DNA from: an uncultured Anaerolineae bacterium
Lineage (GTDB): Bacteria; Chloroflexota; Anaerolineae; Anaerolineales; Villigracilaceae
Direction of reading: 5' to 3'
Assembly: GCA_903875215.1 (NCBI GenBank)
Contig: CAIQVH010000030.1
Span: 62,001 to 126,000 of the forward strand
DNA: 64,000 nucleotides
Positions 10,641 through 63,001 of the stretch are shown here, piece after piece; the stretch's first letter is position 1, and each line of letters begins with the position of its first letter. A program made the translations under genes and the position numbers. The notes beneath the pieces are model-generated. The model saw nothing but the letters and a program-made list of their open reading frames with translations. It had not been told where the DNA came from and searched no databases.

Positions 10641-12746
10641 ATGGAATTAACCCTCGCCCAACGCGCCCTGATTCAGGCCCCGTTCAATTCTCAGATATTC
10701 CTTTCTGGCCCGGCTGGCTGTGGAAAAACCACGGTCGGCGTTGAACGGATGCGCGCCTTGCTCGGCGCGGGCGTGCCTGGTGAAACGATCCTCATGCTCA
10801 CGCCGCAGCGCACCTTGCAGGAGCCGTATCTGGGTCTGCTTTATAGCCCGGAGCGTGGCGCGGGAGGAGAAGTCACCCCTGCTACGGTGGGCGGCCTGGC
10901 CCGCCGGGTGGTTGAATTGTTCTGGCCGCTGGCGGCGGAGGCGGCGGGGTTTGCCCATCCCGATCAAGCGCCCATCTTCCTGACCCTGGAAACGGCCCAA
11001 TATTACATGGCGCGCCTGGTTCGCCCCTTGCTGGAACAAGGCTATTTTGAGTCCTTGGCCATTGACCGCAACCGGCTCTACTCGCAATTGCTCGACAACC
11101 TGAACAAGGCCGCCATGGTCGGTTTTGGACATACCGAAATTGGTGCGCGCCTCGATTCGGCTTACCTGGGCGATCCGGCTCAGCGCCGAGTCTATGCCGA
11201 TGCGCAGGATTGCGCCAGCCGCTTCCGCGCTTACTGCCTGGAACATAATCTGCTCGATTTTTCACTCCAACTGGAGATTTTCACCAACCTGCTCTGGCCC
11301 CAGCCGCTCGTCCAAAATTACCTGGCCCGCACCTACCGCCACCTGATCTATGACAACCTGGAAGAAGATGGCCCGCGTGCCCACGATCTGCTGGCCGAAT
11401 GGCTGCCCGAGTTTGACTCAGCCCTGCTGATTTACGACGAAGGCGGGGGATTCCGCCGCTTCCTCGGCGCTGACCAGGAAACCGCCCTCAATCTGGGTTC
11501 GCAGTGCCGGGAGCAGGCCACACTGACTGAGTCCTTTGTCGCCTCTGCGCCGATTGCCCGGCTGGACGAGGCACTCGTTCAGGCGATTCAACCCCTGTCT
11601 GGCGGCCTGCCCGCTTCGCCATCCGAGCCTGAAGAACAGCCTTCCTCTTCGGCCTTTACCATTCTCCCGGCGCGGTTTTACCCAGCCCTGCTGGACCTGG
11701 TGGCCGCAGAAACCCGCCGCCTGCTCGATTCTGGTTTGCCGCCCGACGAAATCGTCATCCTTTCACCCTATCTTTCCGACGCCCTGCGCTTTTCGCTGAT
11801 GAATCGCCTGGCCGCCCAGGGGGTACCGGTGCGCTCGCACCGTCCCTCGCGCTCACTGCGCGAGGAGCCGCCCAGCCATGCCCTGCTGACTCTGGCCCTG
11901 CTGGCGCACCCAGAATGGGAACTGCACCCGCCCAAACCCGACCTGGCTCATGCCTTGTTCCAGGCCATTGAAGGATTCGACCTCGTCCGCGCCCGGCTGT
12001 TGACCGACATTGTTTACCGAGAGCGGGATCTTACGCTGGGTTCTTTTGGCGCGATCCAGCCGGTGATGCAGGCCCGCCTGACTTACCGTCTGGGCGACCG
12101 CTATGAAAACTTGCGCGCCTGGCTGTTGGCTTACCGCGCCGGGGAACGCCTGCCGCTTGATCATTTTCTGCGCAAGCTGTTTGGCGAAGTGCTCTCCCAG
12201 CCCGGATTCGGCTTTCACAGCAATTTCGATGCGGTGCGGGTGGCGGCCAGCTTGGTGGAATCGGTGAAGAAATTCCGCCAGTCGCTGGAAACCGGGCTGG
12301 AGCCGGGTATCGTGCTTGGGCGGGAGTACATCGCTATGTTGAATGATGGGGTTATCGCCGCGCAATATGTCGAAAGTTGGAGCGCGCCTGGGGCGGAGGC
12401 GGTGCTGGTGGCCCCGGCCCATACCTTCCTGATGATGAATCGCCCGGCGACGGTGCAATTCTGGCTGGATGCCGGTTCCTCCGGCTGGTTTGAGCGGTTG
12501 GCCCAGCCTCTGACTCATCCTTATGTGCTTTCGCGTGGCTGGCAGCCTGGCCGAACCTGGAGCGATCAAGATGAAGTGGCTGCCAACCGCGAGACGCTGG
12601 CGCGGCTTGTTTCCGGGTTGTTGCACCGCTGCCGCGATCATCTGTATCTTGGTTTGTGCGAAATGGGGGAAAGCGGGTTTGAACAACGCGGCGAACTGGT
12701 CAGGGCCTTTCAACGGGTTTTGCAAAACGCCGCCTCCGCAGGGTAA
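10641..12746 (+). CDS. UvrD/Rep-like superfamily 1 helicase-type ATPase, divergent
   Basis: This 701-aa protein has a Q-motif-like start (LTLAQRALIQAPFNSQIFLSG) and Walker A PAGCGKTTVG at about residues 22-31, placing it among UvrD/Rep-type enzymes. The expected motif II DExx reads HLIYDNLEEDGP, with Asn in place of the catalytic Glu, although an acidic pair follows. The middle (VPVRSHRPSRSLREEPPSHALL) matches helicase domain 2 of single-copy UvrD-like proteins. A role in DNA repair is likely. The ATG at 10641 lies six bases after a -10-like CAAAAT with no Shine-Dalgarno, suggesting a leaderless mRNA. No nuclease partner is adjacent. Confidence 0.7.
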   Translation: MELTLAQRALIQAPFNSQIFLSGPAGCGKTTVGVERMRALLGAGVPGETILMLTPQRTLQEPYLGLLYSPERGAGGEVTPATVGGLARRVVELFWPLAAEAAGFAHPDQAPIFLTLETAQYYMARLVRPLLEQGYFESLAIDRNRLYSQLLDNLNKAAMVGFGHTEIGARLDSAYLGDPAQRRVYADAQDCASRFRAYCLEHNLLDFSLQLEIFTNLLWPQPLVQNYLARTYRHLIYDNLEEDGPRAHDLLAEWLPEFDSALLIYDEGGGFRRFLGADQETALNLGSQCREQATLTESFVASAPIARLDEALVQAIQPLSGGLPASPSEPEEQPSSSAFTILPARFYPALLDLVAAETRRLLDSGLPPDEIVILSPYLSDALRFSLMNRLAAQGVPVRSHRPSRSLREEPPSHALLTLALLAHPEWELHPPKPDLAHALFQAIEGFDLVRARLLTDIVYRERDLTLGSFGAIQPVMQARLTYRLGDRYENLRAWLLAYRAGERLPLDHFLRKLFGEVLSQPGFGFHSNFDAVRVAASLVESVKKFRQSLETGLEPGIVLGREYIAMLNDGVIAAQYVESWSAPGAEAVLVAPAHTFLMMNRPATVQFWLDAGSSGWFERLAQPLTHPYVLSRGWQPGRTWSDQDEVAANRETLARLVSGLLHRCRDHLYLGLCEMGESGFEQRGELVRAFQRVLQNAASAG

Positions 12747-12749
12747 AAA

Positions 12750-12783
12750 ACCAAAAGGCGCGATGATCTTCGCGCCTTTTGGT
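12750..12783. terminator. Bidirectional terminator between helicase gene and lon
   Basis: ACCAAAAGGCGCG and CGCGCCTTTTGGT (13-bp arms, 8-nt loop) lie between convergent genes. Confidence 0.88.
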
Positions 12784-12808
12784 TTCTGAAGAGAAGCCTT
12801 ACAAGGGT

Positions 12809-15301
12809 TCACTCGTCCAACTGTTCATCCGCAGCCTGATTTTCTTCGGGGCGGCGGCGGGGCCGGGGCGGCGGCAGGGCCGGCTCGGGGGCGAGGGCGA
12901 TTTCGAGGACTTGATCCATGTGCTCGACCGGGAGAATTTTCAGGTCGGTGCGCGCCCGTTTGGGGACATCCACCAGGTCTTTCATGTTTTTCTCGGGCAG
13001 GATGACGACTTTGAGCCCGGCGCGGTGCGCGGCCAGGAGTTTCTCGCGGACCCCGCCAATTGGCAGGACGCGCCCGCGCAGGGTGATTTCGCCGGTCATG
13101 GCCACCCCGCGGTAGATGGGCCGCCCGGTCAGGGCTGAGAGGATGGCGGTGGCCAGGGTGATGCCTGCGCTTGGGCCGTCTTTGGGGATGGCGCCTTCGG
13201 GCATGTGGACGTGGATGTCCATGCGTTCGAAGACTTCTGGTTCGATGCCGAACAGGTCGGCGCGCGATTTCAGGTAGGTCAGGGCCGCCTGGCCAGATTC
13301 TTGCATGACTTCGCCGATCTGGCCGGTCATTTGCAGGCCGCCTTTGCCTTCGGTGACGGCGACTTCGATGGTCATGATTTCGCCGCCATTTTCTGTCCAG
13401 GCCAGCGAGGTGGCGACGCCGACTTCGTCACGGCGCTCGGCTTCGGTGCGCAGGAATTGGGGCGGGCCGAGGAATTTTTCCACTACGTTGGGGGTGATGA
13501 TGGAGGGGAAGTCTTTCTTTTCGGCTTTGAGCCGCGCCGCCTTGCGGATGACGCGCCCGATTTCCCGCTCCAGGTTGCGTACGCCGGCCTCGTAAGTGTA
13601 TTCGCGGATGACTCGCTGCAGGGCGGTATCCGCAAAGCGCAGGCCGCTTTCGGTCATGCCGTTTTCATCCATCTGGCGCGGAATCAGGTAGCGGTCTGAG
13701 ATGGCCATTTTCTCTTCTTCGATGTAGCCGGGGAATTCGATCACTTCCAGGCGGTCGAGCAGGGCGTCGGGGATGGTGGCCAGGGTGTTGGCGGTGGTGA
13801 CGAACATCACTTTCGAAAGGTCGAAGGAAATTTCGAGGTAGTGGTCGCTGAAAGAATAGTTTTGTTCGGGGTCGAGCACTTCCAGCAGCGCAGAGGAGGG
13901 GTCGCCGCGGAAATCGGAGCCGAGCTTGTCGATCTCATCCAGCATGAAGAGCGGGTTGCCGCTTCCGGCGCGTTTCATGGTTTGGATGATGCGGCCGGGC
14001 AGCGCGCCGATGTAGGTGCGCCGGTGCCCGCGGATTTCGGCTTCGTCGCGTACGCCGCCCAGTGAGACGCGCACGAACTTGCGGCCCAGCGCCTCGGCAA
14101 TGGAACGTCCGAGCGAGGTCTTGCCGGTGCCGGGCGGGCCGACGAAGCATAAAATGGGCTGGCGCTCTTTTTTGGGCTTGAGCGAGCGCACGGCGATATA
14201 TTCAAGGATGCGATCCTTGGCTTTTTGCAGGCCGTAATGGTCACGGTCGAGCACTTTGGCGGCGTTGCCCACATCCAGGTTGTCTTCGGTGAAGGTGGAC
14301 CAGGGCAGATCCAGAATCCATTCGATATAAGAGCGGATGATGCCGACTTCGGGGGCCATGGGCGGCATCTGGTTCAGGCGCTCGATCTCTTTGAGGGAAG
14401 TTTTGCGCGCTTCTTCGGGCAGCCGGGCTTGTTCGACTTTCTGGCGCAGTTCGTTGACATCGCGCGTCCAGATATCGCCTTCGCCCAGTTCGTTCTGGAT
14501 TTGTTTCATCTGCTCGCGCAGGTAGAACTCGCGCTGACTCTTATCCACTTCACTTTGCACCCGGTTTTGGATGGATTCTTCCAGCTCGAGCACGTCCAGC
14601 TCTTCGGCCAGCAATTCGGTGATGCGTTCCAGGCGCGCCTTGGGCGAGGGCATCAGCAGCAGCTTCTGGCGTTCCTCGAACGAGACGGAGATGGAGGTGG
14701 CGATCATATCGGCCAGCCAGCCGGGTTCGCTGATGTTGAGTGCGAACAGGTGGGCTTCTTCGGGGATGGAGCGGTTCAATTCCACGCAGCGGTCGAACAT
14801 GTTCAGCGCGGAGCGCATCAGCGCCTGGGTGGGTTTGTCGGCCTTGGTGGGTTCTTCGATAACCTTGACGCGCACTTTGATGTAAGGGGTGAAGCGCGTG
14901 AATTCGACCACTTCGACGCGTCTGCGGCCCTGCACCAGCGCCGAGCTGTTGCCATCGGGCATGGAGAGCAGCCGGCCGACGGCAATTTCCACGCCGGTTG
15001 GCAGGAAGTCGTTGGCCTTGGGGTTGTCCTGGTCTGGATCTTTTTGAGTCAGCCCGATCACCGTCTGGTTGCGTTCGTGGGCGGTTTGCAGGGTCAGGAT
15101 GGCGGCTTCGTTATCCACGAAGACCGGCGAAACCATGTGCGGAAAGACCACCAGATCGCGCATGGGTAGGACGAGCGCATCGAACATGCCATCCTTGTCG
15201 ATTTCGTGGCTGGGCACACGGTATAGTTCTTCTGTGCGCTGGCTGATCGCCACGTTAAAATTTTCTTCGTCTTCTTCGTCCCAGTCGTCTTGGTTATTCA
15301 T
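12809..15301 (-). CDS. lon: ATP-dependent protease Lon
   Basis: This 830-aa AAA+ serine protease degrades misfolded and regulatory proteins in the cytoplasm. The N-terminal substrate domain (about 40-245) begins DALVLPMRDLVVFPHMVSPVF. Walker A is GPPGTGKTSLG, Walker B FMLDEIDKLG. The catalytic Ser is in KDGPSAGITLA and the Lys in GGVREKLLAAHRAG. The C-terminus carries a short Pro/Arg and acidic tail. The ATG at 15301 is chosen because AGGTGA lies just upstream; a GTG three codons earlier has no such site. A gap of about 250 bp separates it from the upstream carboxypeptidase gene, so it likely has its own promoter (TAAAAT on the minus strand near 15397). Confidence 0.96.
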   Translation of the reverse strand: MNNQDDWDEEDEENFNVAISQRTEELYRVPSHEIDKDGMFDALVLPMRDLVVFPHMVSPVFVDNEAAILTLQTAHERNQTVIGLTQKDPDQDNPKANDFLPTGVEIAVGRLLSMPDGNSSALVQGRRRVEVVEFTRFTPYIKVRVKVIEEPTKADKPTQALMRSALNMFDRCVELNRSIPEEAHLFALNISEPGWLADMIATSISVSFEERQKLLLMPSPKARLERITELLAEELDVLELEESIQNRVQSEVDKSQREFYLREQMKQIQNELGEGDIWTRDVNELRQKVEQARLPEEARKTSLKEIERLNQMPPMAPEVGIIRSYIEWILDLPWSTFTEDNLDVGNAAKVLDRDHYGLQKAKDRILEYIAVRSLKPKKERQPILCFVGPPGTGKTSLGRSIAEALGRKFVRVSLGGVRDEAEIRGHRRTYIGALPGRIIQTMKRAGSGNPLFMLDEIDKLGSDFRGDPSSALLEVLDPEQNYSFSDHYLEISFDLSKVMFVTTANTLATIPDALLDRLEVIEFPGYIEEEKMAISDRYLIPRQMDENGMTESGLRFADTALQRVIREYTYEAGVRNLEREIGRVIRKAARLKAEKKDFPSIITPNVVEKFLGPPQFLRTEAERRDEVGVATSLAWTENGGEIMTIEVAVTEGKGGLQMTGQIGEVMQESGQAALTYLKSRADLFGIEPEVFERMDIHVHMPEGAIPKDGPSAGITLATAILSALTGRPIYRGVAMTGEITLRGRVLPIGGVREKLLAAHRAGLKVVILPEKNMKDLVDVPKRARTDLKILPVEHMDQVLEIALAPEPALPPPRPRRRPEENQAADEQLDE

Positions 15302-29716: not shown

Positions 29717-29758
29717 AAAACTGGAGAAAACCGCATCCCGGCGATTTTCTCCAGTTTT
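29717..29758. terminator. Bidirectional terminator
   Basis: AAAACTGGAGAAAA and TTTTCTCCAGTTTT (14-bp arms, 14-nt loop) separate two convergent units. Confidence 0.88.
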
Positions 29759-29777: not shown

Positions 29778-30956
29778 TTAAGAATTGCCCCCCGTAACAT
29801 CCACCGGTAAATGGAAAATGTCGATCACCGGCGCATCACAAAAGAGCATGGCGCGTTCGATCACATTACGCAGCTCGCGCACATTGCCCGGCCAATCGTA
29901 GGATCGCAGTGCGTCCACAGCGTGGGGTGTCATATCTATAATGTTTTTTCCCATGCGCATATTGTTCTGGCGCACAAAATAGGCCGCCAGCTCGAGAATG
30001 TCACTTTTACGTTCGCGCAGGGGTGGAATGTGCAGGTCAATGCCTTTAAGACGGTGATAAAGATCGGGCAGGAATTGTCCACTGGCGATCAATTTCGGCA
30101 TGTCGCGGTTCGAAGCGGCCAGCACCTGCACATCAGTGTGGATAAGGTGCGTGCCGCCTACCCGGCGAAAGGCCTTTTCGGTGATCGCACTCAGGAATTT
30201 CGACTGGATGTCGGTCGGTAGGGAGGTGATCTGGTCGAGGAACAGGATGCCGTTATCTGCCACTTCCAGCAGGCCCGGTTCGCGCTTTTCGGTGCCGGGC
30301 AGTGCGCCGGCTTCGCATCCGAACAATTCTGATTCAAGCAGATTGCTCTGGATGGCGGCGCAGTTGACCGCGACGAAGGTACGATCGGCTCGCGGCCCGC
30401 TGCTATGAATGAAATGGGCAAGCACTTCTTTCCCGGTGCCTGTTTCGCCGGTAATCAGTACGGAGGTGCCCGCTTGGCTGGCGCGTCGCGCCTGTTCAAA
30501 AACGTGGGTCATCACCGGGCTGCTACTGGTCACAAGGTCGGTGCCTGCACGGCGTTGGTTGTTGCGCAGGTGTGATAGTTCGCGCCGCATTGTGACCATT
30601 TCCTGAGCCCGTATAATTGATTGTTCCAGTCGCGCCAGTTGAATGGGTTTTTGCAAAAAGTCGTGAGCGCCGTTTTTCATGGCATTCACGGCCATGTCAA
30701 TATCTCCGTAGGCGGTGTTCATGATGATGGGTGGGTGGTGTGGCAGGCGTGAAAGTTCTTCGAGCAGGGTGGTGCCCAATCCGTCGGGCAGTTGTACATC
30801 CAGCAGGATGATATCCGCTGTTCCCTGGGAAATCTGCCGGCGGGCTTCGCCCAGTGTTGCAGCGTGGATGACTTCGTATCCGCGGTTGCTCAGGAAAGAT
30901 GCAATAAAGTGGCGGGCATTTTCTTCATCATCGACGATCATGATTGTGACGGTCAT
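29778..30956 (-). CDS. NtrC-like response regulator without sigma-54 and DNA-binding parts
   Basis: The 392-aa protein has an N-terminal receiver (Asp in IILLDVQLPDG, Lys in FLQKPIQ) and an AAA+ domain with Walker A GETGTGKEV. Three features differ from sigma-54 activators. The GAFTGA loop that contacts sigma-54 reads GALPGT. The Walker B DE reads LFLDQI, with Gln for the catalytic Glu. The protein ends right after the AAA+ lid, without the Fis-type HTH. Arginine-finger-region residues (DLYHRL, PPLRERKSDI) remain. It overlaps the kinase gene by 4 nt. It may act as a nucleotide-dependent oligomer or through protein contacts; its output is unknown. Confidence 0.85.
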   Translation of the reverse strand: MTVTIMIVDDEENARHFIASFLSNRGYEVIHAATLGEARRQISQGTADIILLDVQLPDGLGTTLLEELSRLPHHPPIIMNTAYGDIDMAVNAMKNGAHDFLQKPIQLARLEQSIIRAQEMVTMRRELSHLRNNQRRAGTDLVTSSSPVMTHVFEQARRASQAGTSVLITGETGTGKEVLAHFIHSSGPRADRTFVAVNCAAIQSNLLESELFGCEAGALPGTEKREPGLLEVADNGILFLDQITSLPTDIQSKFLSAITEKAFRRVGGTHLIHTDVQVLAASNRDMPKLIASGQFLPDLYHRLKGIDLHIPPLRERKSDILELAAYFVRQNNMRMGKNIIDMTPHAVDALRSYDWPGNVRELRNVIERAMLFCDAPVIDIFHLPVDVTGGNS

Positions 30957-32917
30957 CTTGGCTCGCTCTCTGCGGCGGGGAACAGGAGGGTGAAGACTGT
31001 TCCACCTGTGAAACTGTTGACGCGGATAGAGCCTTTGTGGGCCATGACAATCCGCTTGGTGATGGCCAGTCCCAGGCCTGTGCCTTGTTGGCTGGTGGTG
31101 AAGAAGGGTTGGAAGATCTGTTCGAGATTCTCGGGGGCGATGCCAACGCCAGTATCTGAAATGCTGATGCTGATGAGGAAATGTCCGTTGGCGATTTCGA
31201 TTTTCTCCAATTTGATGGCAAGAGTGCCACCTTTTTCTTGCATTGCATTGAGCGCATTACTGAACAGGTTGGTGAAGACCTGTTCCAAGGCGCGTCCATC
31301 GCCCAGGATGGGTGGGAGGTTGTCTGGGGAGATGAAAACCGGGTTGATGTTGAGTTGTGACATGCGCGGTTTCCAGCGTTCGATCAGTCTCTTGATCAGC
31401 TCGCCCGGCTGAGTGGGGATGAGCTTGTATTCCATTGATTTTGAGAAGTTGAGCACTGAATCCATCAGGTGGGTCAGCCGGTTGCAGTCGCCTTGCATGC
31501 GTTCGATCAGGTTGTGGTTGGCATCATCAGTGGGCAGGTTGATATCCATGAGCTGAAGGCCTGTGCTGATGTTATTAATGGGGTTGCGTACTTCATGCGC
31601 GAATATGGCGGTGACTTCACCCAGGAAGGCGCGCTGTTCCAGTTGTTCAGTCAGGGCGTGGTTCTTTTCGTATTCGCTGAGGTCCTGAATCAGCAGGATG
31701 ATATTGGAAATTTCACCGTTTGCTTGCGCGGAGATTACCTGCAGGTGGGCGGGAAATACTTGCCCCGAGCGTCGGTGGATTTTGATATTCCCGAGATCGG
31801 GTGTAATGACGCCCTGACAGGCCAGCCGTAAGGCGGAAGGCAGGTTGTTGACTCCGACCAGGATATCTTCCACTGGCTTGCCGATTACTTCGCGATTGTT
31901 GTATCCGAGCATCAATTCGGCGGCGGCGCTTAGCGTGAGGATGGAGAGGGTTGGGCTGAGCAATATCATCCCATTCACGGAGTAAGCCCAGATGGCTTCA
32001 CGAATCGCGTTGCTCTGTCGGTATTTGCGGTTGGTTTGTTGCAGTTGCTCCAGGGTAACGTAAAAATTCAACGCCGAGCTGACGTTTTCGGCCAGGATCT
32101 TAAGAGTTTTGATCTGCCGGTGGGCCTCCTTGTGAGGCAGGTTGGCCACGGTCAGCAAGCCAAGCCGGTTGTTTTTATATTGGATGGGGACGGCGATCAG
32201 CGATGAAAAACCGAGCGCGGAAGCCGCTTGCTGGAGTTTGGTGGTCGGGCGACGGTTATGGTTCCAGACCCATTGGGAATACTCGCTGGAAGGTTCATCC
32301 AGGGGTAGAGTCTCGGGCAGGGCTTCCATCTGCGAGCCGTAGGATTTTAGACGCAGAAAAGTGTGCTGCTTCAGGTTGGCACGGTAAATGCATAGCTCCG
32401 TCGCGGCCAGCATGCGAGCGCCGGTTTCCAGCAACAGCTGCAGAGCGTCATCCAGGTTGGTCTGTGTGTTGAGACCGGCCAGGGTTTCAATCACGGCGAG
32501 CAGGTTTTCTTCGCGCCGGGCCTGGGTTTCCTTCCAGATGCGCACGTTCATTGAAACCATGCGGAGCAATAACCAGCGCCCGCTCTTGTCCAGCCAGGTG
32601 ATGCTGGCCCAGGCGGGCATTCTTTTTCCACGGGGCAGGATGATTTCCGTTTCCCGTTCTTCGCCGGAAGACCAGCCTTCTCCAAAATCTGGAAGAAATT
32701 GATCGAGGAGAATCTGGGTTGATGGGTGCTTGTCGCCGTCGAGCATGTCCCAAAAAAGCTGGTTTCCGATCACCACCCGGCGGCTGGTGCGATCAATCAC
32801 TGCCGCTGCCTCGGGAATCACGTTTAACAGGGCGGTAAATTCACCGGTACCCGGAGAGACCTCCTGCCAGGCCGGGGTAGGATTGGGGGCCGGCGGAATA
32901 AAGGAGGGCAGCCTCAT
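30953..32917 (-). CDS. Sensor histidine kinase (PAS-GAF-PAS-HisKA-HATPase)
   Basis: The 654-aa protein has no clear membrane segment, so it is probably a cytoplasmic sensor. Order: PAS-like domain (about 20-120), GAF domain (about 150-295), second PAS (about 310-420), dimerisation domain with the phospho-accepting His in IFAHEVRNPINNIS, then the HATPase domain (N box FTNLFSNALNAM, G1 DTGVGI, G2 GTGLGLAI). I chose the ATG at 32917; an in-frame TTG at 32992 would add 25 residues. It is translationally coupled to the response regulator that follows, its presumed partner. Confidence 0.9.
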   Translation of the reverse strand: MRLPSFIPPAPNPTPAWQEVSPGTGEFTALLNVIPEAAAVIDRTSRRVVIGNQLFWDMLDGDKHPSTQILLDQFLPDFGEGWSSGEERETEIILPRGKRMPAWASITWLDKSGRWLLLRMVSMNVRIWKETQARREENLLAVIETLAGLNTQTNLDDALQLLLETGARMLAATELCIYRANLKQHTFLRLKSYGSQMEALPETLPLDEPSSEYSQWVWNHNRRPTTKLQQAASALGFSSLIAVPIQYKNNRLGLLTVANLPHKEAHRQIKTLKILAENVSSALNFYVTLEQLQQTNRKYRQSNAIREAIWAYSVNGMILLSPTLSILTLSAAAELMLGYNNREVIGKPVEDILVGVNNLPSALRLACQGVITPDLGNIKIHRRSGQVFPAHLQVISAQANGEISNIILLIQDLSEYEKNHALTEQLEQRAFLGEVTAIFAHEVRNPINNISTGLQLMDINLPTDDANHNLIERMQGDCNRLTHLMDSVLNFSKSMEYKLIPTQPGELIKRLIERWKPRMSQLNINPVFISPDNLPPILGDGRALEQVFTNLFSNALNAMQEKGGTLAIKLEKIEIANGHFLISISISDTGVGIAPENLEQIFQPFFTTSQQGTGLGLAITKRIVMAHKGSIRVNSFTGGTVFTLLFPAAESEPR

Positions 32918-33134
32918 GAATTGACGGAGTTCGTTGGCGATCGACAGGTTAAAAATCCTTCCGGTGCTCGGCGGCAGGCTGATAGTGTTCAATATAGAAA
33001 ATAGAAATATCTCCGGCGTGTGCCGGAAACACCCTTCTATTTTATCGCGATTTCCTGCGCCTCATGCTCATCTGACCGGTGGATTTTGGGCAGTTTGCCC
33101 TGTTTTTCCCTGGCGAATTCTGTATAATCAACCC

Positions 33135-33620
33135 ATGGTCAACAATGTAACCCGCCTGCTGGATGCAAAAAAAATCCACTACAAAGCTTACGAGACTCCG
33201 GCCGAGAAGCTGGGCGCCCTGGAAACCGCGCGGATTCTCAACTTGCCGGCCGAGATGGTCTATAAAACCATTGTTGTTACCCGTGTCCGGCCAGGCAAAC
33301 CTATTCTGGCCGTCATCCCCGGCCCCAATCAGGTTGATTTGAAAGCGCTAGCCGCTGCATTGGGGGAGAAAAAAGTCAACCTGCCGACTGAGCGCGAAGC
33401 CGAGCAGTTGACCGGCATGCAGGCTGGTGGTATTTCGCCGCTGGCGCTGATCAATAAAGGTTTCCAGGTGTTGATTGATACCGCTGCGCAGGAACTTGCC
33501 ACACTGAATGTTTCTGGCGGCCAGCGCGGCCTGAATGTTAACCTGCCCGTCAAAGACCTGGCGGCGCTGACGAATGCTCGTTTCGCGGCCATTTCTGTTC
33601 CTGAAGCGCGGAACTCCTGA
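33135..33620 (+). CDS. ybaK: YbaK/EbsC-type aminoacyl-tRNA deacylase
   Basis: The 161-aa protein is a single YbaK/ProX domain. It starts VTRLLDAKKIHYKAYETP and contains VYKTIVVTRVRPGKPILAVIP and the catalytic-region Lys. It clears misacylated Cys-tRNA-Pro in trans in other bacteria. TATAAT (33123-33128) ends six bases before the ATG and no Shine-Dalgarno is present, so the mRNA is probably leaderless. Confidence 0.92.
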   Translation: MVNNVTRLLDAKKIHYKAYETPAEKLGALETARILNLPAEMVYKTIVVTRVRPGKPILAVIPGPNQVDLKALAAALGEKKVNLPTEREAEQLTGMQAGGISPLALINKGFQVLIDTAAQELATLNVSGGQRGLNVNLPVKDLAALTNARFAAISVPEARNS

Positions 33621-60916: not shown

Positions 60917-63001
60917 ATGAAAACAAAAACACTTTTGGCGATTATTTTTGCCATTATCTTGATTTCGTGCTCACCCGTGGATATTTCTCTACCAACGAAA
61001 ACGGTTATTCCTCTTGCAACTTCTACGGTTATTCCCACACTGCCTCCAACGTTGACGCCCGTTCCAACTGTGACAAAGGCACAGATAACGCCGACCGCTT
61101 TGTATGCGCCGATCAAATTATCGCCTGCGGATGAACAGGTCTATCAAAAAGCTTTGAACGATATCCCCATTTATCGTCAAGGGGATATGCAAATTTCGCT
61201 TCAAGATGAAAAAGGCAAGCCGCTTTCAGGTTATCAGATTAAATACAGTCAAGTCAGCCATGATTTTGATTTTGGCTCTGTGATTTATCCCGCTCAAATT
61301 GGCAAAATACAGGCCGCTGGCATTAATTACTGGGACTTTCAAACACAATGGCGGTGGATCCAACCGCAAGAAAACAAATTTACCTTCGATTTTCTTAATT
61401 ATTGGCAAACAATAGATGAGATAAAATCCGCTGGCTATAAAACCATGTCGAGTGGATTGTTCATCTTGAATTCTGAGGGTGGATCTGATTATGTCCCACC
61501 ATTTTTGAAAAATTTAGCCTTTGATGAATTTCAAAAAAAAGAGTATGAATATATCTCTGCCACAGTAAAAGAAATAGGCCCATCGATTGATGTCTGGGAA
61601 GGTATCGGTGAACCAAATTTTGTTTATCGGAATCCGCTCAATTTTAGCAAAGATCAATACTACCAGGCAATTTACATCGCAAACAAAGCGATCCGCGATA
61701 ATGATCCCACGGCCAGGATTGAGATTAATTTGGGCGTACCCTGTGGTCAAATTTCCTGGAAATCGGATTTTGAGATCGTTCAAGGTTTACTCGAGCGGAA
61801 TATCGATTTTGACCAAATCGGTCTCCAGTTTTACAACAATAATTTTGCGAACAATGGGTATTATTTTGGCAAGGATTCCTTGAGCGAGATGAGCGCTTGT
61901 TGGAATGCGTATGAAAAAATCCTGGCCCCTTATGGGAAAAAGCTGAATATGACCGAGATGGCAGTTTCATCCGATCATCAGGGAAACCAACTTGGTTACT
62001 GGGATGTCCCATGGACGGAAGAGACGCAGGCCCAATATGCGGAAACATTTTGGACAATCTTTTTTGCGAAACCAACCAATACGGGCCTCTCCTGGTATTT
62101 CACGCTCGACACGCCGGATGATAAAGACGCTTTTGTGATGTATAAAGGTGGTTTGATCCGGGCTGACGGAACGCCCAAGAAAGCGTATTATGCGCTGCAA
62201 AACCTGATTAAAGCATGGACAACATCCGGCGAGGGGCATACCGATCAAAGTGGCGCGTTAGTTTTTCGAGGTTTCGGCGGCGATTATGAAATCGAAATCG
62301 TCAACCCGCAGACCGGGGAAAGCATGGTCGCGCCAGTCCATGTGACTGAACAGGAGGTCGCCAGCCGGACAGTGACCTTTTATCCAAACCAGCAATTGCT
62401 TCAACACAAAGAAAAATTGGAAAAATTGATCGGGTATTGGGAAACCAAGTCGAATGCTGAACTTGTTCATAAAGGTCACGATTACCTGGCTCTGGTCAAT
62501 CACCACTTGCAAAATTCAGAATGGGAGCGGGCGGAACAAACCATAGCCGCCGCGTTGGATGAACTTTCCATCACCATCAAGATTAATATTCCGCTGAGCA
62601 CATTTCCGCTCGCCAGCCCATCTGGTTTCGAGACACCCATTATGGATGGCGGCAGGGCGGTCATTTGGGGCGCAGAGACGCTATATTTTCCTTATGATTT
62701 TCCCCCTGGGATTGTCTCTGTTGAGGTCAGGGCGCATTCGAAAAGTGAAAAGGGTGAATTCCCATCCATGGTGCTTGGCGTGGGGGCCAATTATTCGGAG
62801 GTTTGGAAAGTTGAGAATACTAGCCCGGAAGTGTATTCATACACAACGGCTACAACCGGCAGCGAAAAGGTTTTTACAATTCGCAACCTGTACATTGACC
62901 GGGTCAATGAAAGTATCATCGCACAAAAAGGCAATGTCGGTGAGTTGAAACTTTTTATCGATGAAGTTAATTTGATTATAAAAACAGCAGAGGTTCCATG
63001 A
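60917..63001 (+). CDS. Lipoprotein with a GH10-like (xylanase-type) barrel
   Basis: The 694-aa protein has a lipobox (LISC), a Pro/Thr linker, a small beta region, and a TIM barrel similar to glycoside hydrolase family 10. WRWIQPQENKFTFDFLNYW corresponds to the conserved entry, IDVWEGIGEPNF carries the probable acid/base Glu, and KKLNMTEMAVSSD the probable nucleophile Glu. An extra segment (coiled-coil region about 480-540) and a C-terminal beta domain (SVEVRAHSKSEKGEFPSMVLGV) follow. The gene is much richer in A and T than its neighbours, with AAA, GAT and TTT codons common, which suggests acquisition from elsewhere. The polysaccharide is unknown. Confidence 0.75.
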   Translation: MKTKTLLAIIFAIILISCSPVDISLPTKTVIPLATSTVIPTLPPTLTPVPTVTKAQITPTALYAPIKLSPADEQVYQKALNDIPIYRQGDMQISLQDEKGKPLSGYQIKYSQVSHDFDFGSVIYPAQIGKIQAAGINYWDFQTQWRWIQPQENKFTFDFLNYWQTIDEIKSAGYKTMSSGLFILNSEGGSDYVPPFLKNLAFDEFQKKEYEYISATVKEIGPSIDVWEGIGEPNFVYRNPLNFSKDQYYQAIYIANKAIRDNDPTARIEINLGVPCGQISWKSDFEIVQGLLERNIDFDQIGLQFYNNNFANNGYYFGKDSLSEMSACWNAYEKILAPYGKKLNMTEMAVSSDHQGNQLGYWDVPWTEETQAQYAETFWTIFFAKPTNTGLSWYFTLDTPDDKDAFVMYKGGLIRADGTPKKAYYALQNLIKAWTTSGEGHTDQSGALVFRGFGGDYEIEIVNPQTGESMVAPVHVTEQEVASRTVTFYPNQQLLQHKEKLEKLIGYWETKSNAELVHKGHDYLALVNHHLQNSEWERAEQTIAAALDELSITIKINIPLSTFPLASPSGFETPIMDGGRAVIWGAETLYFPYDFPPGIVSVEVRAHSKSEKGEFPSMVLGVGANYSEVWKVENTSPEVYSYTTATTGSEKVFTIRNLYIDRVNESIIAQKGNVGELKLFIDEVNLIIKTAEVP

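Follow-up and report, generated by a model that had tools for sequence, protein, structure and literature searches.

A candidate orphaned sigma-54 activation module built on an NtrC-type regulator in an uncultured Anaerolineae bacterium

Sigma-54 and its activators co-occur almost perfectly, and the consulted parts of the survey that reports this (PMC3162934) also record departures from the rule: Fusobacterium nucleatum and Jannaschia have no sigma-54 yet encode activators, with Glu at position 4 of the GAFTGA loop, and approximately 110 homologues deviate from GAFTGA, with Pro preferred at position 4. The accessible sections of PMC7175178 describe the Glu of Walker B, the arginine finger R299/R168, and the GAFTGA requirement, and NtrC proteins that lack GAFTGA and act at sigma-70 promoters are treated in those of PMC10274813. 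Some activators, such as CtcC and FlgR, have no helix-turn-helix (HTH) domain (PMC3162934), and a class defined as a response regulator with an AAA+ module but without a D domain is recognized in the same partial sources (PMC3162934; PMC7175178). Here, we studied a 64,000-nucleotide stretch of DNA (the window; positions 62,001 to 126,000 of contig CAIQVH010000030.1, assembly GCA_903875215.1) from an uncultured Anaerolineae bacterium of the Villigracilaceae, which encodes a histidine kinase and an HTH-less NtrC-type regulator in a genome (G000) where no gene for sigma-54 (rpoN) was detected. The reading we favor over repurposing, with somewhat more confidence than doubt, is that the pair is a sigma-54 activation module that has been orphaned and now most likely persists as a vestige short of pseudogene status, because rpoN, the -24/-12 promoter site, and a P-loop ATPase gene that bears such a promoter in relatives are all absent from G000.

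Regulators and rpoN were sought in 400 sampled genomes of the order (called at E<=1e-110 and E<=1e-10, respectively). Regulator-bearing genomes numbered 220, and 75 regulators, the window's included, were compared residue by residue; the regulators of L086 (G116) and L034 lie at zero distance in the tree, and L086, being identical to L034, was omitted from later counts. As an initial annotation of the window had described, the sigma-54 contact loop reads GALPGT and Walker B has DQ in place of DE. Among the 74 other orthologues the loop is GAFTGA in 45 and GAFTSA in 17, and its sixth residue is Ala in all except L173, which has Ser. The same annotation had proposed aligning homologues for conservation of the altered loop, and none of the 74 shares the alteration. 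A change it did not list affects the first arginine finger motif, where FREDLYYR has become FLPDLYHR. Because F/Y then T/S in the loop, the Walker B Glu, and the first Arg are kept in every other orthologue (Table 1), these motif changes are more than chance. We take E242 to correspond to E108 of PspF and E239 of NtrC1, and R302 to R168 and R299, in which case R296 would match R162. At the 126 columns that are invariant in 29 other orthologues, the window's protein is changed at 14, and each of those 29, counted in the same way, at 0-4. Twelve of the changes lie in the AAA+ core (T205N, F219L, T220P, A222T, K226E, E242Q, L254F, R256S, L286M, R296L, V305G, and V306I); the others are P62T in the receiver and G325A in the lid. 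Thus, the protein has neither the GAFTGA loop nor the combination of a Walker B Asp-Glu with both arginine fingers that marks a functional sigma-54 activator. Read from its sequence, this copy is predicted not to activate sigma-54 transcription, and we infer that its sigma-54-remodelling activity has been lost. Elsewhere in the set, L172 and L173, the regulators of G390 and G407, carry NSFTGA and NSFTGS in place of GAFTGA and have N-E at Walker B.

The HTH (Fis) domain was also said to have been lost, and its absence is real: a Pfam scan of the regulator returned no HTH family, and the protein stops after the lid. However, a loss in this lineage is rejected, since all 73 other orthologues whose stop lies within the stretch end no more than 18 residues past the position of window residue 388, too short a tail to contain an HTH (L208, the remaining one, is truncated by the edge of its stretch and was excluded from this count). 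By this comparison, the missing domain is the ancestral state of the whole orthologous group, of the FlgR/CtcC type, with a receiver present and a DNA-binding domain absent.

G000 is an assembly of 3.77 Mb in 38 contigs, 98.6% complete. A check of the genome for rpoN, as the initial annotation had advised, found none by either sigma-54 family: there was no match to the DNA-binding family, nor to the core-binding family even at E<=1. The genome has one full sigma-54-activator domain, that of the window's regulator (191 bits), and two others score only 33 and 27 bits. The suggestion that this lack is general, on the grounds that no rpoN is known in many Chloroflexota, holds for G000 itself but was rejected for the group, as rpoN is present in 243 of the 400 genomes and in 209 of the 220 that bear the regulator, usually seen directly upstream of the kinase. 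In ten of the 11 genomes that have the regulator without an rpoN match (G033, G395, G166, G239, G244, G264, G177, G209, G390, and G407), the locus is truncated by the end of a contig, so the absence of rpoN there is uninformative; G000 is the only one of the 11 with the pair inside a contig. The least probable of the readings we weighed is that the organism has an rpoN, missed by a metagenome-type assembly, with which the pair still works. The contig number and completeness of the assembly leave some room for it, but the locus sits within a 242-kb contig with unbroken synteny (topA-DUF-regulator-kinase-tRNA_edit, where DUF is a gene with a domain of unknown function), and the missing rpoN is accompanied by the loss of the sigma-54 contact loop, of the -24/-12 site, and of the ATPase.

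In relatives, all seven contiguous loci (G011, G016, G025, G047, G057, and the Chloroflexota metagenome-assembled genome loci L034 and L035) have the order rpoN-kinase-regulator on one strand; in G055, rpoN sits on a different contig from the pair. The identity of the G011 RpoN is backed by three Pfam domains. Each of the eight rpoN genes read is preceded by a -24/-12 site matching at 10-11 of 11 bases (the chance of at least 10 matches in 300 nt is 0.002, from shuffles of one stretch), which points to probable autoregulation of the operon. Upstream of the window's kinase, no such site matches at more than 7 of 11 bases, and a permissive tblastn search with relatives' RpoN for an rpoN remnant gave only noise among the matches listed, the best of which (E 0.09) lay elsewhere in the window. 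The downstream order of regulator, DUF gene, topA, and manC is common to the window, G011, G033, and G055, and a tree of four flanking genes groups G000 with these three (support 100; internal order 77). Genomes without the operon fall outside this group. In five genomes (G062, G063, G064, G066, and G045), the tRNA-editing gene comes next after the DUF gene, and kinase, regulator, and rpoN are all missing from the interval; on the contigs of G065 and G061, the tRNA-editing gene was not seen. The initial annotation would have taken intact homologues beside an rpoN as a sign of simple decay, and this was borne out in part: such homologues exist, in sister species.

Compact sigma-54 operons consisting of rpoN, a kinase, and an HTH-less activator under their own -24/-12 promoter occur at L025 (7340-11951), L026, L027, L028, L029, L034, and L035, and no earlier description of such an operon in this order of Chloroflexota turned up in the literature searched. 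In genera g25 and g16 (L027, positions 12627-14837, L026, L028, and L029), the gene after the regulator resembles RelA/SpoT, with Pfam run on L027 only. DhaR-like regulators of about 670 aa with PAS, GAF, AAA+, and Fis-HTH domains are encoded at L022, L023, and L024 (G011, G033, and G025); none was reported in G000 at E<=1e-40. They were set aside as sigma-54 activators, having no ELFG/GAFTGA match.

A probable target of the module is a 439-aa P-loop ATPase, which has a -24/-12 site 31-70 bp upstream in six genomes and, from separate scans, also in G016 (L195), making seven of the seven operon-bearing family genomes tested (G395, another such genome, was left out of the search). The ATPases of G011, G033, G055, G016, G047, and G057 are 82-86% identical to the G025 protein. 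The search gave no match in G000, G063, G064, or G066, and in G065, G062, and G045 the matches were no better than 23-26% identical. The ATPase operon is probably sigma-54 driven. At its loci (L193-L199), the ATPase has a weak AAA_16 match, and in most of them the next gene encodes approximately 490 aa (FERLKRF...GQFSLGL).

Under the orphaned-module reading, the ancestral system, as reconstructed from relatives, would have been a cytosolic GAF/PAS kinase that phosphorylated an HTH-less NtrC-type AAA+ regulator, which in turn would have activated sigma-54 polymerase from solution, like FlgR and CtcC. The genes for RpoN, kinase, and regulator would have formed a single operon, in that order, with a -24/-12 promoter of its own, and the module probably drove the ATPase operon as well. 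In the G000 lineage, rpoN, the promoter, and the ATPase gene, all now absent, would have gone, and the regulator would afterwards have shed those features that serve sigma-54 remodelling alone: the L1 loop contact, the catalytic Glu, and one arginine finger, each altered in the present sequence. The kinase can probably still pass phosphate to the receiver, and the regulator can probably still bind ATP; the pair would be left with no known output, neither sigma-54 remodelling nor DNA binding.

Rates on the G000 branch bear on whether the pair is decaying or still in use. Amino acid branches are about threefold longer in G000 than in G011 (regulator 0.355 vs. 0.117; kinase 0.786 vs. 0.229), without lengthening in the flanking genes (0.181 vs. 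0.210). In codon models, omega for the regulator is 0.187 on the G000 branch against a background of 0.067 (p 3e-5), and for the kinase 0.177 against 0.111 (p 0.08). These models are only partly useful because of the high synonymous divergence and because omega is likewise raised on this branch in two of the four control genes (duf 0.191 vs. 0.086, p 0.04; manC 0.165 vs. 0.062, p 0.01), though not in topA and dprA. Changes at conserved sites are concentrated in the AAA+ core (12/74), compared with 2/52 in the rest of the regulator (p 0.042) or 1/31 in the receiver alone (p 0.10); with the kinase core added to the rest of the regulator, the comparison is with 4/107 (p 0.006), and with the kinase sensor (3/19) included too, with 7/126 (p 0.022). 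Because the changes skew to the AAA+ core and the kinase core is spared, it looks as if the AAA+ motor has been switched off and the phosphotransfer half kept.

Several observations weigh against an orphaned vestige. Omega of 1 is rejected on the whole G000 branch (regulator, p 1e-9; kinase, p 3e-11), a result tempered by the inclusion in that branch of time before sigma-54 loss. The kinase core appears as if still used, with conserved-site changes at 0/21 in HisKA and 2/32 in HATPase. Some 1046 codons run without stop or frameshift, and had drift been neutral for long enough to produce the 14 changes (0.05-0.06 substitutions per site), the probability that both frames stayed free of stops would be 0.016-0.007, in agreement with simulations. 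G208 and G372 have the operon but gave no match to the ATPase, so it is no target common to all operon-bearing genomes. Genome-wide, G000 has one -24/-12-like site and seven other genomes have 4-16, but the rpoN-less G063 and G064 have 6 and 14, so that this count is uninformative. Finally, the altered state is known from one genome only, the closest relatives compared with it being at 73-74% identity. Pure neutral decay is disfavoured, at about 1%, but keeps some probability, because one genome, on a branch that spans time before the loss, does not allow the event to be dated.

The main rival explanation is a version of the initial annotation's proposal that the AAA+ module was repurposed, perhaps as a phosphorylation-driven oligomer. 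On this view, selection keeps the pair as an AAA+ assembly gated by phosphorylation that binds ATP but hydrolyses it poorly and works through protein contact, as a scaffold, a sequestering partner, or a phosphate sink, with no transcription output; we regard it as a serious possibility, though one we would not bet on. Both frames are open (P about 0.01 under neutral decay), and changes are skewed to the motor, with the receiver (1/31), lid (1/16), and kinase core (2/55) spared. The receiver and Walker A are intact, as originally described, with the D53, T81, and K103 residues the same in all 74 other orthologues, and sensor II is kept. A Glu-to-Gln change at Walker B classically prevents hydrolysis and leaves ATP binding. 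A normal fold is predicted (AlphaFold mean predicted local distance difference test score [pLDDT] 87.5; predicted template modelling score [pTM] 0.60), and the gene remains coupled to the multi-sensor kinase, as the initial annotation had also stated, with an overlap of 4 bp. However, no partner, new promoter, or new conserved motif was found; a single genome cannot show such a motif, and a consensus scan found no clear promoter ahead of the kinase. Further, omega is highest in the receiver-only test (0.32 vs. 0.055), where neutrality is not rejected (p 0.14), and omega is raised on this branch in the two control genes as well. The stronger statement, that after sigma-54 loss the pair was converted to a hydrolysis-dead, ATP-binding, phosphorylation-gated assembly with purely protein-protein output, seems to us rather doubtful. 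If true, it would mean that a regulator of the NtrC family can operate without either remodelling sigma-54 or binding DNA.

Neither gene is a pseudogene by its reading frame (392 and 679 codons, without stop or frameshift), and the regulator is ungapped in all seven pairwise comparisons. Its Sigma54_activat domain scores 188.7 bits against a Pfam cut-off of 20.2 and is followed by the lid, as in the NtrC type. The kinase has GAF, PAS, HisKA, and HATPase_c domains and intact FAHEVRNP, NLFSNALNA, DTGVGI, and GTGLGL motifs. Terminator-like sites are at chance level in the region (five observed and 5.2 expected by shuffling). The hairpin ahead of the kinase frame, on the minus strand, has a perfect 6-bp GC-rich inverted repeat and a T-rich tail, and no same-strand gene ends there.

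Table 1. Positions in the window of the regulator, the kinase, and associated sites
Feature	Position	Strand	Remarks
Regulator gene	29778..30956	-	392 aa; Pfam: receiver (Response_reg, 5-114), AAA+ core (Sigma54_activat, 144-308), lid (AAA_lid_14, 314-388); no HTH
Altered sigma-54 contact loop GALPGT, residues 217-222	30291..30308	-	F/Y then T/S in 74/74 other orthologues
Altered Walker B LFLDQ, residues 238-242, E242Q	30231..30245	-	Glu in 74/74 other orthologues
Lost first arginine finger, R296L	30069..30071	-	Arg in 74/74 others; second Arg, R302, kept
Walker A GETGTGKE, residues 170-177	30426..30449	-	Intact
Receiver phospho-acceptor Asp, D53	30798..30800	-	Intact; T81 and K103 likewise
GAF-PAS histidine kinase	30953..32992	-	679 aa from TTG; alternative start ATG at 32917
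Slot where relatives carry rpoN	32993..33137	.	rpoN and sigma-54 site both absent; followed by a divergent tRNA-editing-domain gene
Terminator-like hairpin past regulator end, 18 pairs	29717..29758	-	Prediction; site number at chance level
Terminator-like hairpin just ahead of kinase frame	33005..33034	-	Prediction; single copy in window

The closest matches to the regulator in the PDB, by sequence and by fold over the receiver and AAA+ core, are to full-length NtrC1 of Aquifex aeolicus (1ny5 and 4l4u, E 5e-83 and 3e-82; the fold is closest to 1ny5), which has GAFTGA, DE, and an HTH domain (4l4u construct), and from which the window's protein differs in all three. TyrR and HupR work through DNA binding. 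A sigma-70-type regulator like these, or like the NtrC of Caulobacter, without GAFTGA and acting at sigma-70 promoters, is an improbable identity for the window's protein: loss of GAFTGA without sigma-54 is known, and Pro is frequent at position 4, as here (consulted parts of PMC3162934 and PMC10274813), but the named cases act via DNA binding, the window's protein has no HTH, and the DNA-binding partner that would be needed was not seen adjoining. HupR, TyrR, DhaR, VpsR, and Caulobacter NtrC share with it, according to the same portions of these papers, an altered or deleted L1 loop and independence from sigma-54; unlike them, it has no DNA-binding domain, and its L1 is substituted, not deleted. 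Fusobacterium nucleatum and Jannaschia likewise keep a putative activator in the absence of sigma-54, with position 4 changed, but there the residue is Glu and a sigma-70 role is proposed (PMC3162934, in part), whereas the window's protein has Pro, has also lost the catalytic Glu, and carries no HTH. Each loss taken singly is already known because such cases are reported in the sections consulted of PMC3162934 and PMC10274813; no case combining loss of the loop, the catalytic Glu, the HTH, and the sigma factor was found in the openly licensed literature searched. If the orphaned-module reading is right, this is a module caught soon after its sigma factor vanished, with intact sister copies for comparison, which lets one ask in what order a pathway is dismantled and whether a disconnected AAA+ regulator finds new work. 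The nearest functional parallels are FlgR of Helicobacter and CtcC of Chlamydia, which have the same receiver and AAA+ module without HTH and a kinase partner, a class (as far as the cited extracts describe it) that the window's GAFTGA-bearing orthologues fit; unlike FlgR and CtcC, the window's copy is without a genomic sigma-54, the loop, the catalytic Glu, and the first arginine finger.

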